Source: Candidatus Uhrbacteria bacterium RIFCSPHIGHO2_02_FULL_46_47 (GTDB taxonomy: Bacteria; Patescibacteriota; Patescibacteriia; GWA2-47-26). Taken from it: DNA of 43,230 nt. The stretch is taken from contig MGDU01000011.1 in assembly GCA_001790815.1 (NCBI GenBank), positions 1 through 43,230 on the forward strand, given 5' to 3'. Shown here in pieces: positions 9,041 through 43,132 of this stretch; positions within the stretch are counted from its first letter, which is position 1; each line of letters starts with the position of its first letter. The notes beneath the pieces were generated by a model. That model saw only the letters and a program-made list of their open reading frames with translations, did no database searches and had not been told where the DNA came from. The position numbers were made by a program, and so were the translations under genes.

Positions 9041-9066
9041 ATTTCACGATTGCGCAATCGTGAAAT
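9041..9066. repeat. Palindrome B1 (26 bp)
   Basis: ATTTCACGATTGCGCAATCGTGAAAT, perfect palindrome. Confidence 0.9.
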
Positions 9067-9426: not shown

Positions 9427-9460
9427 ATTTCACGATTGCGCAATTGCGCAATCGTGAAAT
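9427..9460. repeat. Palindrome B2 (34 bp)
   Basis: ATTTCACGATTGCGCAATTGCGCAATCGTGAAAT, perfect palindrome; followed by GGCAC. Confidence 0.9.
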
Positions 9461-9609
9461 GGCACTGTGTCATAAGTTAATCTTGTAGTACATCCACCCG
9501 TCTGATATGATGTATCCATAAGGGGTACCGATTACACATTATCCACACTTATTATAGCATGGTTAAGGGCTAATCCCCACCCCTGCGGATAATAGTAGTT
9601 CCGCGGAAA

Positions 9610-9670
9610 TAATTAAAAGTTTTTATCCGCTTCGCGGATATATAATTTGGGGGCTATTTTAAAAATAATT
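9610..9670 (+). repeat. Left 61-bp inverted end of the plus-strand cassette
   Basis: TAATTAAAAG + TTTT[ATCCGC-TTC-GCGGAT]A + TATAATTTGGGGGCTATTTTAAAAATAATT; outer 10 and inner 30 nt match the reverse complement of 13199-13259 exactly. Confidence 0.92.
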
Positions 9671-9680
9671 TGACCGAAAC

Positions 9681-10763
9681 ATGACAAAAAATGTTGTAAA
9701 ATTGATTGAAAAAAAAGAGTGGGTAAAAAGATGGGCTGGATCTTTTACTTTTATTTCAGCTTCATACTGGGGAAAACAATACAAGACGTCGCTTGAACGT
9801 GAACTTGGTGTTGGTTTTGATCATTCCCTATTTGTGCATAATAAAGGAACTATCTCTTTTTATTTAATAAAAAGAGAATTAGACAAACTTGGCAACACTT
9901 TGGCAAAACGGGCAACAAAAGATAACAAAATCGCGATTGCATGGTGTCAGGAATTGAAACGTAATACGGATGTAATAACTAAAATAATGAAAAAATTGCA
10001 CGGCACAATTCCCTCATGCGCCGAATATCAAAAATTTCTTGTTGCTTTTGACAGACACATTTCCTTTCACAACGCCATCAAAAAACCAATCGATTATTTT
10101 TCCGCAACTATTTTGAGTAAATTGCTCCCCTATTTTAAAGACGCGCGCCTTTATTCTGAACATGTATACAGCGATACCGAGAGCTTCTTTCGCGGTGTTA
10201 TGAAGAAAATAGGCAAAAAAGAAAAGTATAATTCCGATTACCTAACTTGCCTTACTCAATCGGAATTTGAAATCTATTTACAAACGAATAAGTTGCCAAA
10301 AGAAAAAATTCTGCAAACCCGTTTCGAGTCCAGTGTATTGTATTTTGAAAATGCCAAAGAAATTATAGCAACCGGGAAACAAACAAAAAACTTTGAAAAA
10401 ATAATATTTCGCAAATCCATTCAAGGTAAAAGAGAAATTAAAGGTGTTTCCGCATATAGCGGAACAGCAATCGGGATAGCGAGAATAGTACCTGACCCGC
10501 ACAAAGTCGGCACTTTCAGTAAAGGCGATATTCTAATAACAGGCATGACCCGTCCGGAGTTTTTGCCGATCATGAACAAGGCTTCCGCTGTTGTGACGGA
10601 TGCTGGCGGAATATTGTGCCATGCGGCCATATCCGCGCGTGAATTAAAAATTCCGTGCATAGTTGGGACACAACTTGCGTCATTTATTTTTCATGATGGT
10701 GATAAAATACGTGTAGACGCGGACAGTGGCATTATAAAAATAATAAAAAAATATGGCTGCTAA
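9681..10763 (+). CDS. PEP-utilizing-enzyme mobile (phosphohistidine swivel) domain protein, no recognisable ATP-grasp or PEP-binding barrel
   Basis: C-terminal SGTAIGIARIV...ASAVVTDAGGILCHAAISARELKIPCIVGT with predicted phospho-His in CHAA. Confidence 0.85.
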   Translation: MTKNVVKLIEKKEWVKRWAGSFTFISASYWGKQYKTSLERELGVGFDHSLFVHNKGTISFYLIKRELDKLGNTLAKRATKDNKIAIAWCQELKRNTDVITKIMKKLHGTIPSCAEYQKFLVAFDRHISFHNAIKKPIDYFSATILSKLLPYFKDARLYSEHVYSDTESFFRGVMKKIGKKEKYNSDYLTCLTQSEFEIYLQTNKLPKEKILQTRFESSVLYFENAKEIIATGKQTKNFEKIIFRKSIQGKREIKGVSAYSGTAIGIARIVPDPHKVGTFSKGDILITGMTRPEFLPIMNKASAVVTDAGGILCHAAISARELKIPCIVGTQLASFIFHDGDKIRVDADSGIIKIIKKYGC

Positions 10764-12207
10764 AACAGTTGAATATAGTTGGATTAAAAATGTCAAGTGG
10801 GTCAAGGTGAAAGAACGTGATATCGACATCGCTCTTGAGTCATTTTATACCAAAGGTTATGAAAAAAAATATTTCAAAAAAATAGGAATCAACTTTGGTA
10901 TTAGCAACCAACTGGTTTTTAGCGACGGCAGAATATACTTTGACCAACAAGACATAGATAGCACTACTCATTTGTTGTTAGAAAAAAAAGATAAATTGTC
11001 CAAGTATGCATTAAAGGTTACCAACCATTGCGTTAAACAGCTCAAGAAATGCGAGCAATTTTTAAAAAAACATAAAAAGACGAACTTTAGTAAAATTTCA
11101 GACGGCAGCTTTAAGAAAATATGCTCAGAATTTATAGAAGTAATCTATAGTCTTATTCCGCAGGCTTTTTTTGTCTCTGAGATCTTAGAAAAAGTAGCAT
11201 CAGAAAAAATTATAGCATCGCTAAAAAACCACACCAGTGATCCGGTATCGTTATACACAAAATTGGTCATACCAACTCAACCAAGCAGGTTGAGTCGGGA
11301 ATATGTAGAACGCCTTGCACTTGCGCTAAAATTACAGCAAAAAAATTCAATCGACCACGGGATCAAAAAATATTTGAATAAATTTGGCTGGGTGGCGCTA
11401 TACAGCCCAATAGACGATTTATATACAAAAGAAAAGATACTAACAGAAATTAAAAAATTGAGTGAAAAATCAAATTTGGCTGATGAATTGAAACAGGCAA
11501 AACGCAAAGAGATTGAATTAAAAAAAATAGCCGCTCAAGCATGGCGAACGGTCAAGCTACCCGCTCATGATCATTTGTTAATCAAAGTCATGCAAAAAAA
11601 CGCTTGGGTGAGAACGTATCGTCGCGAATTAATTAGCGAGATTTTTTTTCAAATGAGGCCGATGTATATAAAATGTGCACGGAAACTAAATTTAAAATTT
11701 TCCGATTTAAGACAGGTTGCGTGTTGGGAAATTATTGAACAATTGAACAATCCCGAGAAAAATTTTGATAATATGATTGAAGAGAGAAAATCTGGATATG
11801 TATTCCTACAACAAAAAAACGAGGTTCAAATTATCTCCGGCGAATCAATATCTAAAATTTTTGATCCGGAAAAAAATTCAACAATAAACGCTGAATTGAA
11901 AGGTTTGCCAGTATACCATGGACAGGCCGTTGGGCCAGTAAAAATTATTCATAAAAAAGAAGATCTTGCAAGCTTCAAAAAAGGAGAAGTTTTGGTAGCG
12001 CCCACAGTTGGCACATGGATGATGCCAGCCGTAGAAAAATGCATCGCTATCATAACTGATGCAGGTGGGGTGTTAAGCCATACCGCTATTGTGGCGCGCG
12101 AATTCAAGAAGCCTTGCATAGTTGCAACAAAACATGCTACAAAAATATTAAAAAACGGTCAAATAGTTACCATAGATACTCAACTTAATTTAATTAAGTT
12201 GAAATAA
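10753..12207 (+). CDS. Second PEP-utilizing-enzyme mobile domain protein, apparently paralogous to the preceding gene
   Basis: C-terminal GQAVGPVKIIHKKEDLASFKKGEVLVAPTVGTWMMPAVEKCIAIITDAGGVLSHTAIVAREFKKPCIVAT; 11-nt overlap with the upstream gene. Confidence 0.87.
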   Translation: MAAKTVEYSWIKNVKWVKVKERDIDIALESFYTKGYEKKYFKKIGINFGISNQLVFSDGRIYFDQQDIDSTTHLLLEKKDKLSKYALKVTNHCVKQLKKCEQFLKKHKKTNFSKISDGSFKKICSEFIEVIYSLIPQAFFVSEILEKVASEKIIASLKNHTSDPVSLYTKLVIPTQPSRLSREYVERLALALKLQQKNSIDHGIKKYLNKFGWVALYSPIDDLYTKEKILTEIKKLSEKSNLADELKQAKRKEIELKKIAAQAWRTVKLPAHDHLLIKVMQKNAWVRTYRRELISEIFFQMRPMYIKCARKLNLKFSDLRQVACWEIIEQLNNPEKNFDNMIEERKSGYVFLQQKNEVQIISGESISKIFDPEKNSTINAELKGLPVYHGQAVGPVKIIHKKEDLASFKKGEVLVAPTVGTWMMPAVEKCIAIITDAGGVLSHTAIVAREFKKPCIVATKHATKILKNGQIVTIDTQLNLIKLK

Positions 12208-12220
12208 AAATTTTAAATTT

Positions 12221-13198
12221 ATGACAAAAAATGAAGTAAACTTTTTAACTCGCCACGCACAATCAGAACGGCACGATCCCCTGCGTGCTTCAAAAGAATA
12301 TCCTAGTCTCACAATTGAAGGTGTAGAACAGTCAAAAGATACGGCAAAAGACAAGATATTGGAATTAATTAAAAGTGCACCGGAAGGAGCAGTTATATTT
12401 ATTGGCGGGGCTTCTGACCAAGCACGCACGGCACAAACAGGGGAAATTTATGGCGACGCCCTGGATGAGGTAATTTATGGACAGGCAAATAACGAAGAAA
12501 TTGAAGTTGTGACGAAAAAAAATATAGATGAATTAATTAAAGCATCAAATAAAAAACGAGCTACAGAAACTGCCGGACAAGATTACGACAGATCTCTTGA
12601 ACAAATTAAAAACAATACAGCAAAGACGCCGGATTATGAAGATGTCCTTCAACAAGTAACCGACTATTTGAGAAATGAAGAACCGGGAAAAAAGATAGTC
12701 ATAACTTTTCCTGTTCAACTCAAGGGTTTTGCTTATAGATTTAATGACCGCTGGACGACTAAGGGCGGAAAAAAAACCGAATACTTCAGCGAAATTTTAA
12801 GGAAATACAACAACGATCACACACTGGCTGGTCTTGATTGGTTGGAGAATCAAGGAGTCCTAACCACTAAAGATGGAAGAGAAATTCAAGGACCAAACCC
12901 AACACAGGTGGCAAAAGATTATTTGGAAAGTTTGAGAAGATTAAGAGAGTTTGCGGGCAAACATACAGATAGGCCAATAGTTATTGGCGGAGTAGGACAT
13001 CAGTGGGATTTAGACGCAGTTGTAACCTATTTAGCCAGTGGCGGTAAGGATGTAACTATTGAAAATTTTAGACAATTAGTGGGCGACCCGGAAAAACCGC
13101 TGATTGGCGAGGCAGAAATGTTTGGCTTTAGCATAAGTGAAGAAAAAACTACTGTTGATTATCGAGGTAAACAACTAACGATTGATAAAAACGATTGA
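12221..13198 (+). CDS. Histidine phosphatase superfamily (RHG)-like protein
   Basis: NFLTRHAQSE (RHG motif) and distal GGVGHQWDLDAV. Confidence 0.7.
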   Translation: MTKNEVNFLTRHAQSERHDPLRASKEYPSLTIEGVEQSKDTAKDKILELIKSAPEGAVIFIGGASDQARTAQTGEIYGDALDEVIYGQANNEEIEVVTKKNIDELIKASNKKRATETAGQDYDRSLEQIKNNTAKTPDYEDVLQQVTDYLRNEEPGKKIVITFPVQLKGFAYRFNDRWTTKGGKKTEYFSEILRKYNNDHTLAGLDWLENQGVLTTKDGREIQGPNPTQVAKDYLESLRRLREFAGKHTDRPIVIGGVGHQWDLDAVVTYLASGGKDVTIENFRQLVGDPEKPLIGEAEMFGFSISEEKTTVDYRGKQLTIDKND

Positions 13199-13259
13199 AA
13201 TTATTTTTAAAATAGCCCCCAAATTATAGTTTTGCTTCGCAAAACAAAGCTTTTAATTA
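13199..13259 (-). repeat. Right 61-bp inverted end of the cassette
   Basis: Reverse complement: TAATTAAAAG + CTTT[GTTTTGC-GAA-GCAAAAC] + TATAATTTGGGGGCTATTTTAAAAATAATT. Confidence 0.92.
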
Positions 13260-13311
13260 CATCCGATAACTAATTATATCCCCGTCAACCCCCCCAGCTG
13301 TGGATAATCAA

Positions 13312-13380: not shown

Positions 13381-13414
13381 ATTTCACGATTGCGCAATTG
13401 CGCAATCGTGAAAT
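13381..13414. repeat. Palindrome B3 (34 bp, identical to B2)
   Basis: ATTTCACGATTGCGCAATTGCGCAATCGTGAAAT followed by GGCACAGAGTGG. Confidence 0.9.
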
Positions 13415-41179: not shown

Positions 41180-43132
41180 TTATTCCACTACTGCCCGAAT
41201 GCGACGAACGCCGGCGGCGCTTGATTCTTCTTTCACGATTTTGAAATGCCCGATCTCTCCGGAATGTGTTACATGCGGACCGCCGCAAATTTCTTTACTA
41301 AAATTGCCCACCGAGTATACTTTCACGCGCGGCGGATATTTTTGTTTAAAAAACGCCAACGCGCCCTCCGCAATCGCCTCTTCGTATGTTTCTTCCTTTG
41401 AAGTTACCGGCAAATCCTCTTTAATCTTCTCATTAACTAATTCGCTAATCTGCTTAATCTCTAATTCGCTCAACTTCTTCGGATGCGTAAAATCAAACCT
41501 CAAACGCTGCGCCGTAATATCTGATCCTTGCTGGCGCACATGTAAACCAAGCACCCCGCGCAGCGCTTTGTGGAGCATATGTGTTGCGGTATGCAGGCGC
41601 GTTACAATTTTTACTTCTACCTCATTGGCGGCTTTAAGCTCTCCTGTATCCAATATAAGTCCATGTCCGCCAAATTTTCCTGTTATTCCTGCTCGACTTT
41701 TTTCTTGATGTTCTTCAAATGCCTTTTTAAATCCCTCTTCATCTACCTTAAGCCCGCGTTCGTGAGCCATTTCAACCGTAAGCTCAAGCGGAAAACCATA
41801 AGTGTCGTAAAGGTGAAAGGCATTAATCCCGGAGATAACTCCCGGTTGACCCTCACCCTCCCCTCTCCCTCGGGGAGAGGATGGCCGTAGGCCATGTGAG
41901 GGGGCGTTATGCACAATTTTCTCAAATTCCGCCATTCCCCGTTCAATCGTGCGCGCGAATTTTCTCTCTTCATCATCAAACGCGGCCAAAATATTATTGC
42001 GCTCACGCACAAGTTCCGGATATGCCGCGCCATAAAGATCAACTACCTTTCCAATAAGTTGCGCAAGCAAACCATGGGGCAATTTTAAAAGCGAGGCATG
42101 TCGAATGGCGCGGCGAATTACCCGTCTTAAAACATATCCTTGCTCAACATTTGAAGGCCGCACGCCGTCGGCCATAAGAAAAACCGCGCCACGCAAATGG
42201 TCAACAATGATGCGAATAGAGCGCATGCTGATCTCTCCCTCACCCTCCCCTCTCCCCGCAGTACTGCGGGGAGAGGGTGCTCCGACCCCGATCGGAGCAG
42301 GTGAGGGCGACACTATCATTCCAATCAACGGCCTAAACAAATCCGTATCAAAAATTGTGGCAACCTTTTGCGCAATCATTGCCAATCGCTCCAAGCCCAT
42401 ACCCGTATCTACTCCGGGGATCGCAATCTTCTGTAATTTCTTGGTAGTCGCAGGCTTTAGCCTGCGTTCCGTATTGTCCGCCGGCTGAAGACCGGCGACT
42501 ACATCTTTTTGTAATAGTTCCTCACGCGAACCATTGAAGAAAAACTGATTGAATACGATATTCCACACCTCAATATCTTCCCCGGCGGCATTTTTGCAAT
42601 AGATTTCGGTAGTTGGTCCGCATGGCCCGGAAGATCCGGTTGGCCCCCAAAATACATCCTCCATCCCCTGCTCCACTATCTTAATCCTAGGATCAAGTGC
42701 TTTCCAAATGTCCCGCGATTCAGTATCCTTTGGCACGCCAATGGTTTCCTCACCTTCAAATATCGTCACACATGAAATTGGCAATCCCATTTCTTTGGTA
42801 ATGAACTCATGCGCCCAGGCAATCGCTTCTTTTTTAAAATATCCGCCAAAGGAAAAATTGCCCAGCATTTCAAAAAATGTCAGATGCGCCTCATCCCCTA
42901 TCTCATCAATATCCGAGGTGCGAAAGGCCTTCTGCACTGAAGTAGCATTTTTTGAACCAAAATCACGCATTGGATCTGCCAGCCCAACATAGTATTTTTT
43001 AAACTGCTGCATTCCCGCAGTAGTCAAAAGCACGGACGGATCATCCGGCAAAAGCGAAGACGAAGGCACGATAACATGCCCGCGCTCCTTAAAAAATGTT
43101 AGGAAACGTGTGCGAATTTCTGCGCCTGACAT
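41180..43132 (-). CDS. alaS: Alanyl-tRNA synthetase, short form, with three in-frame repeat inserts
   Basis: IRTRFLTFFKERGHVIVPSSSLLPDDPSVLLTTAGMQQFKKYY; ATHMLHKALRGVLG; ICGGPHVTHSGEIGHFKIVKEESSAAGVRRIRAV. Confidence 0.97.
   Translation of the reverse strand: MSGAEIRTRFLTFFKERGHVIVPSSSLLPDDPSVLLTTAGMQQFKKYYVGLADPMRDFGSKNATSVQKAFRTSDIDEIGDEAHLTFFEMLGNFSFGGYFKKEAIAWAHEFITKEMGLPISCVTIFEGEETIGVPKDTESRDIWKALDPRIKIVEQGMEDVFWGPTGSSGPCGPTTEIYCKNAAGEDIEVWNIVFNQFFFNGSREELLQKDVVAGLQPADNTERRLKPATTKKLQKIAIPGVDTGMGLERLAMIAQKVATIFDTDLFRPLIGMIVSPSPAPIGVGAPSPRSTAGRGEGEGEISMRSIRIIVDHLRGAVFLMADGVRPSNVEQGYVLRRVIRRAIRHASLLKLPHGLLAQLIGKVVDLYGAAYPELVRERNNILAAFDDEERKFARTIERGMAEFEKIVHNAPSHGLRPSSPRGRGEGEGQPGVISGINAFHLYDTYGFPLELTVEMAHERGLKVDEEGFKKAFEEHQEKSRAGITGKFGGHGLILDTGELKAANEVEVKIVTRLHTATHMLHKALRGVLGLHVRQQGSDITAQRLRFDFTHPKKLSELEIKQISELVNEKIKEDLPVTSKEETYEEAIAEGALAFFKQKYPPRVKVYSVGNFSKEICGGPHVTHSGEIGHFKIVKEESSAAGVRRIRAVVE
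41849..41903. repeat. GC-rich palindromic repeat in frame within alaS
   Basis: CCCTCACCCTCCCCTCTCCCTCGGGGAGAGGATGGCCGTAGGCCATGTGAGGGGG; encodes SHGLRPSSPRGRGEGEG. Confidence 0.88.
42237..42307. repeat. GC-rich palindromic repeat in frame within alaS
   Basis: CCCTCACCCTCCCCTCTCCCCGCAGTACTGCGGGGAGAGGGTGCTCCGACCCCGATCGGAGCAGGTGAGGG; encodes [25 protein letters not shown]. Confidence 0.88.
42447..42502. repeat. GTAGTCGCAGGC-type inverted repeat in frame within alaS
   Basis: GTAGTCGCAGGCTTTAGCCTGCGTTCCGTATTGTCCGCCGGCTGAAGACCGGCGACTAC; encodes VVAGLQPADNTERRLKPATT. Confidence 0.88.

Follow-up and report, generated by a model that had tools for sequence, protein, structure and literature searches.

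In this study, a three-gene segment was analysed in the 43,230-nt stretch MGDU01000011.1 (assembly GCA_001790815.1) of Candidatus Uhrbacteria bacterium RIFCSPHIGHO2_02_FULL_46_47, the whole of which is referred to as the window. The segment, enclosed by inverted ends at positions 9610 to 13259, is very probably an integron-type gene cassette that is now an orphan in this genome. It is assigned so because its ends are homologous to ends that abut attC sites elsewhere, and because a related gene pair is bounded by attC sites in another genome. Modular ends, attC arrays, covariation within attC, several insertion sites, and the loss or gain of a cargo gene were all observed directly. The source genome (1.02 Mb) is designated G000, and other G-numbers denote genomes of the same class (ABY1, Patescibacteria).

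Ends and boundaries of the window cassette

The features of the cassette are listed in Table 1. A previous description made without database searches (the sequence-only reading) had reported three AT-rich plus-strand genes tightly enclosed by 61-bp inverted ends, and most of it was confirmed. The inner 30-mers are exact reverse complements of each other, the outer blocks TAATTAAAAG and CTTTTAATTA lie at matching distance, and the right arm begins directly after the last stop codon. GC content is 36% in the cassette versus 47% in the rest of the window, and none of the three encoded proteins is a recombinase. The 61-bp ends are real, but the unit is slightly longer than they suggest, because homology with relatives extends outward to GTTCCGCGG (9598-9606) and CCGATAAC (13263-13270). 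Aligned without gaps, the inverted arms 9604-9671 and 13198-13265 are 79% complementary over 68 nt. Each arm has a hairpin with a perfect 7-bp stem, and the two stems differ in sequence (TATCCGC-TTC-GCGGATA on the left, GTTTTGC-TTC-GCAAAAC on the right).

The 30-mer is not a common repeat scattered over the genome, since the two ends are its sole occurrences in the entire 1.02 Mb; with up to 3 mismatches, it was absent from the 190 other class genomes searched. If up to 3 mismatches are allowed, chance alone would yield 0.01 matches to a 20-nt core fragment in the window. One core match with 2 mismatches was found at 42831-42850, and the remainder of an end is absent there. Inner-core matches in G171, G271, one Clostridia metagenome-assembled genome (MAG), and one Bacteroides MAG were regarded as chance, being within coding sequence where checked; end matches in G006 and G156 also look like chance.

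Outside the arms, the right flank (13263-13281) corresponds to the R''-L'' half of an attC and the left flank (9587-9606) to a degenerate L'-R' half. The stretch ATAACTAATTATATCC (13266-13281) is identical in 15 of 16 letters to the R''-L'' of a G145 attC at the same position. The GTT (5') and AAC (3') cassette boundaries are present, in GTTCCGCGG at 9598 and CCGATAAC ending at 13270, and are homologous to R'/R'' of the relatives. Pairing of the left L' with the right L'' gave P values from 0.003 (shuffled) to 0.02 (random window pairs), which is weak taken alone. The window left end was matched by the left ends of G306 and G133 at E ~1e-7, and the right end by that of G306 (91% over 58 nt, E 2e-12).

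Table 1. Features of the window cassette and its flanks
Feature	Position	Strand	Basis or remarks
Residual attC L' half-site GGATAATAGTA	9587..9597	+	Local alignment to complement of right-hand L'' (GGATAATAGTAGTT / GGATATAATTAGTT)
Residual attC R' box GTTCCGCGG (relatives: GTTATCGG), left cassette boundary	9598..9606	+	End alignment with relatives
Left (5'-type) mirrored end	9610..9670	+	Outer block TAATTAAAAG 9610-9619; hairpin 9624-9640; inner arm 9641-9670 with TATAAT
Gene 1, 360 aa	9681..10763	+	N-terminal domain of unknown function and phosphohistidine swivel domain (PEP-utilizers)
Gene 2, 484 aa, architecture of gene 1, motif TDAGGVLSHTAIVAR	10753..12207	+	Pfam PF00391, 1.9e-20; missing from G390 copy
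Gene 3, 325 aa, histidine-phosphatase-like, RH motif near N-terminus	12221..13198	+	Pfam His_Phos_1, 0.019, below its cut-off
Right (3'-type) mirrored end	13199..13259	-	Inner arm 13199-13228; hairpin 13229-13245; outer block CTTTTAATTA 13250-13259
attC R'' box CCGATAAC, intact, right cassette boundary	13263..13270	+	Identical to R'' of relatives' attC
attC L'' box TAATTATATCC	13271..13281	+	Part of ATAACTAATTATATCC (13266-13281)

Homologous ends around unrelated cargo

A protein search and an end search were carried out, each covering 380 genomes of the class. With the two ends alone as queries, inverted homologous pairs were recovered in G306, G058, G015, G133, G242, and G070, with single ends elsewhere; on inspection, G031 had three inverted pairs. 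Homologous ends, often paired in this way, surround unrelated cargo in about a dozen other class genomes. The question raised by the sequence-only reading, whether the ends bound different gene content, was answered in the affirmative: a version without gene 2 is present in G390, and unrelated genes are enclosed in G306, G058, G133, G242, G070, G031, and others. The enclosed cargo included radical-SAM proteins (one with a transglutaminase-like protein), an M16 peptidase, an APH-type kinase, a PH-domain protein, a DUF2268 protease, a Fic protein, and unknowns.

The 5' end type has the arrangement GTTATCGG-AAA-TAATTAAAAGTTTTT-hairpin-ATTATTTGGGGCTAT. In the 3' type, read inward, ATG replaces AAA and the hairpin is GTTTTGC..GCAAAAC. 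The two types remain distinct (AAA versus ATG) among the relatives, and in some of their cassettes a TTGACA-like motif follows the 5' end. The G015 cassette (L162 6196-8805) has two 3'-type ends and two outward-pointing attC sites, as if one arm had converted the other. A second mirrored end type, in which TATTCCTTTTCTTT is read inward at either end, is found around several G104 cassettes (L068) and around a G133 cassette (L165 1597-4423) that is DNA-methylase-like and apparently of restriction-modification type.

attC sites and arrays in related genomes

The 3' ends of the relatives are followed outward by sites of 79-197 nt, in which the outer boxes (CCGATAAC / GTTAT...) are complementary, as are the inner boxes (GCGTATATCTG / CAGATATACGC); judged by sequence, these sites have the R''-L''...L'-R' layout of an integron attC. 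When 15 such sites were aligned, 19 pairs formed in 83% of the cells versus 27-41% when slid by 1-3 columns, and 10 of the 19 pairs showed compensatory changes on both sides. A covariance model of the site (R1), the E-values of which are rough, detected arrays of 4-7 attC in a single orientation in G133, G058, G242, G070, G031, and G104. Approximately 24 attC sites at E < 1e-4 were outside the set used for building R1. Among type-A ends outside the three-gene family, 19 of 25 abut attC, mostly in arrays. Promiscuous cargo between conserved sites was seen among the relatives. Rfam reported no attC family in loci where R1 scores high.

Two attC sites in G104 (L068 1389-3866) enclose a swivel-domain gene together with a gene 3 relative; such cargo is therefore itself cassette-borne there. 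In G100, one further end adjoins the start of a truncated tyrosine recombinase, a 67-residue N-terminus with weak matches to PF13495 and integron/Xer models. The recombinase start (L164 6717-6941) is transcribed away from the 5'-type cassette end, as expected of an integron platform.

Other copies of the three-gene cassette

Gene 2 is present at 93% identity in G352 (Candidatus Magasanikbacteria, a different family; contig PFPK01000018.1). The DNA of this copy is 86% identical to the window, with an abrupt onset at about 9607, and the flanks outside are unrelated. MAG contigs are fragmentary, and this one stops within gene 3. Over 9607-12700 the identity is mosaic, being ~74% for most of gene 1, ~96% at 11000-12350, and ~78% further into gene 3, which suggests that related cassettes recombine with one another. 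The G390 copy, consisting of genes 1 and 3, occupies a third site, with an endonuclease-III-like gene on one side and a TRAM-domain methyltransferase gene on the other. The flanks of the three sites (G000, G352, and G390) are mutually unrelated, and in all three the genes follow one order and face one way with respect to the two end types. No copy of the element or its ends was found in the viral contigs, plasmids, or phages searched, phages giving only generic swivel-domain matches.

Proposed movement and status of the window copy

The window cassette was presumably mobilised in trans by an integron integrase (IntI). The integrase would act on the folded attC hairpin and excise the cassette as a circle, in which the mirrored arms may extend the attC stem. 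Insertion of the circle would follow, with attI, another attC, or an ordinary chromosomal site as the target and with neither a transposase nor a duplication of that target. Integron insertion is not expected to produce a target-site duplication. The sequence-only reading had noted none, and nothing was seen beyond a possible TA. The sequence-only reading had suggested a non-autonomous gene cassette mobilised in trans. This part is supported by ends that bound other gene content and by three unrelated sites, but the class of element, an integron cassette with attC, had not been recognised.

The window copy itself appears to be an orphan or decayed integron-type cassette with half-sites only, and is called so because R1 finds no attC yet the flanks keep R''-L'' and a degenerate L'-R'. 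As a complete attC was not found and the R''-L'' half is present, it is classed as cassette-derived and not as a functional cassette. Two routes may have led to this state, in which half-sites are left: insertion outside an array, at an ordinary chromosomal site as for attG sites, or decay of its array.

Several points weigh against the assignment to integron cassettes. R1 detected no intact attC beside the window cassette, with filters on or off, and none adjoining the G352 and G390 copies; the model was itself built from 15 attC sites chosen by eye. No integron integrase was found, by a weak test, in 425 kb (42%) of the source genome, nor a complete one in any array examined, and every integrase step in the excision and insertion in trans is one that we infer. 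The scan of the source genome for attC covered the same extent (425 kb, 42% of 1.02 Mb); in favour of the assignment, an attC-like site was detected there on another contig (C20:73-201, E 0.009 over 425 kb).

Alternative explanations

Transposon, dif-module, island, and invertible readings were also considered, and all rank low. Mobile insertion cassettes and non-autonomous transposons carry passenger genes between inverted ends and are mobilised in trans. That the window element is of this kind, moved by a DDE transposase acting in trans on terminal inverted repeats and found in integron arrays through an insertion preference, is unlikely. It shares with them the inverted ends, the lack of an internal recombinase, and the occurrence at several sites; the three copies without intact attC fit as well, and the TA beside each end would suit a TA duplication. 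However, on either side the homology reaches precisely as far as the attC R boxes, attC adjoins nearly all related ends and most end copies in the sample, and the same arrays hold other cassettes whose mirrored ends are of unrelated sequence. No transposase with such ends (exact core 20-mer) was seen in 84,980 species genomes, and no autonomous relative with the exact core in these genomes or in viral contigs.

A three-gene genomic island, acquired in a single transfer by homologous or illegitimate recombination and with regulatory hairpins (promoter or terminator) as its ends, is very improbable. The TATAAT in the left arm, the hairpins, and purifying selection on the genes are compatible with an island, but the ends are common to unrelated cargo at unrelated places, where they are paired as inverted repeats, and the boundaries coincide with attC.

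There is even less to be said for a dif (Xer) module, in which a cassette between inverted dif-like sites is moved by the host XerC/XerD. The sequence TTATCGGAAAT resembles the XerD arm of dif, and a 28-bp layout can be fitted to the outer flank. Against this, a longer covarying attC hairpin uses the same bases for its R' and L' boxes, and each cassette has a single site, in one orientation, whereas dif sites are paired and inverted. Equally implausible is a phase-variable invertible segment, which the sequence-only reading had named as an option: there are inverted repeats around an operon, and both G015 ends are 3'-type with outward attC, so that a conversion or inversion happened in one relative, but no invertase is encoded inside, the copies in three genomes do not differ in how the genes are ordered and oriented with respect to the end types, and these types stay distinct.

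Mirrored ends of the cassettes

The inverted ends were compared within and between cassettes. Mirrored ends adjoin the attC R boxes on the inner side, and their arms match far better within a cassette than between cassettes. For 10 cassettes of the window end type, the summed score of the inner arms was 294 within cassettes versus 223 ± 13 when permuted (P = 1e-4). For 26 cassettes with attC on both sides, comparison of the first 45 bp with the mirrored last 45 bp gave 290 versus 192 ± 12 (P = 5e-5, the test floor), and the 19 cassettes of other end types alone gave 194 versus 127 ± 10 (P = 5e-5). The 7 cassettes of the window end type showed no excess in the 45-bp test because the outer block is common to them. 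The mirror sequences are often cassette-specific, such as GAACAATACATTCTT and AAAATTTAATTTGAC, each found at both ends of one cassette only. Mirroring is not universal, approximately 10 of the 19 cassettes of other end types being at background level.

That the core boxes of cassettes are complementary is known; to our knowledge, an attC extension of such length is not. As many cassettes are, unexpectedly, mirrored just inside attC, excision as a circle would give them a longer attC hairpin. At one junction of two cassettes of the window type, the bottom strand was predicted to fold into an extended stem, two side hairpins at a four-way junction, and then the R and L boxes (z = -7.6). In arrays, such an extension would form only between like-type neighbours, and in the excised circle for every mirrored cassette. 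It is possible, though rather doubtful, that ABY1 cassette ends are part of the recombination site, with ~12-60 bp of own mirror sequence extending the attC hairpin in the circle or at a junction of like cassettes (as a four-way junction in the window subtype), and that this sequence either has been selected because it serves the recognition or replication of the circle, or is a trace of an inverted duplication that made the attC. Speculatively, then, the arms would either help the circle to fold, be recognised, or be replicated, or preserve a record of how attC was made. If true, an inverted duplication copying the flank together with the R and L boxes would be direct evidence on cassette genesis.

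Cargo genes

Genes 1 and 2 probably encode phosphohistidine phosphotransfer proteins, and gene 3 a histidine-family phosphatase. Gene 1 matches Pfam PF00391 (4.6e-22) and, among PDB sequences, the swivel domains of phosphoenolpyruvate (PEP) synthase and rifampin phosphotransferase; its motif TDAGGILCHAAISAR is intact, the motif scan having been done on the G352 copy. The AlphaFold model of the gene 2 protein (pLDDT 91) had rifampin phosphotransferase 5fbu as the best PDB fold (E 1.4e-14, TM 0.59) and is predicted to resemble the substrate-plus-swivel part of that enzyme, with no ATP-binding domain. Fold matches of gene 3 were to phosphoglycerate-mutase/histidine phosphatases (E ~1e-4, TM ~0.4-0.5), and its relatives adjoin swivel genes in G223, G179, G104, G281, and G291. 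The three genes are under purifying selection (dN/dS ~0.08-0.2), which also counts in favour of the integron-cassette assignment.

From sequence and models, the likeliest function is phosphotransfer with a resetting phosphatase. The swivel domain with its catalytic motif in genes 1 and 2 is shared with the rifampin phosphotransferase/PEP synthase family, and for gene 2 the resemblance extends over the substrate-plus-swivel part of the rifampin phosphotransferase from Listeria. In contrast to these enzymes, the ATP-binding domain is not in the same protein, and one operon encodes two swivel proteins and a phosphatase. Relatives of gene 2 are widespread, occurring in 280 of the 380 class genomes by protein search. 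Swivel-domain (PEP-utilizer) proteins without an ATP-binding domain often form tandem multi-gene clusters in class genomes. The swivel-gene clusters of the source genome on C25 (L061, L062) and C23 (L063) had no such ends and no attC match. PADLOC gave no defence match.

Comparison with known systems

The relatives share with IntI-mobilised integron gene cassettes, in chromosomal arrays and in clusters of attC sites lacking integron-integrases (CALIN), the order of open reading frame(s) followed by attC R''-L''...L'-R', arrays of one orientation, varied cargo, no internal recombinase, and no target duplication. They differ in having mirror-image ends internal to the R boxes, ~12-60 bp long (in the window subtype ~60 bp, each arm carrying a hairpin), in multi-gene cargo, and in the TTGACA-like motif of some; the window copy differs further in having no intact attC. 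In attG insertions, as outlined in PMC12901181 with reference to Loot et al. 2024, integron cassettes are integrated at chromosomal sites outside integrons. The three copies of the window cassette, single and at ordinary intergenic sites, are similar, but a complete attC would be expected on the 3' side of an attG insertion, and only R''-L'' is recognisable in the window.

In archaeal integrons, attC arrays were found in MAGs outside the classical hosts, mostly with no nearby integrase (PMC9668308), a text with no mention of Patescibacteria or the candidate phyla radiation (CPR). The present arrays likewise lie outside classical hosts and differ in their host (ABY1). They suggest that ultra-small Patescibacteria have integron arrays carrying radical-SAM, peptidase, restriction-modification, Fic, and phosphotransfer cargo. 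No description of such arrays was found in the open-access library searched, and an earlier report may exist elsewhere.

How a free gene gains its attC is, as far as we know, still an open question. The process, by which a free gene acquires attC and becomes a cassette, is termed 'cassette genesis' in PMC8352920. Cassettes with mutually mirrored, often cassette-specific ends make it testable by comparison, and the mirrored ends may help to explain how cassettes are made.

Dispersed palindromes in the window

Three copies of the perfect palindrome TTTCACGATTGCGCAATTGCGCAATCGTGAAA are present in the source genome, at 9428-9459 and 13382-13413 in the window and at C10:88573-88604. The two window copies flank the cassette at 113-150 bp from its ends, and a shorter form is present at 9041-9066. 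Other dispersed palindromic repeats, of the CCCTCACCCTCCCCTCTCCC and ACGAATCTACAAAT families, are abundant in the window (2005, 5670, 6699, 21624, 24679, 27401, 32122, and 41850; also 27816 and 40112), several of them within long open reading frames.

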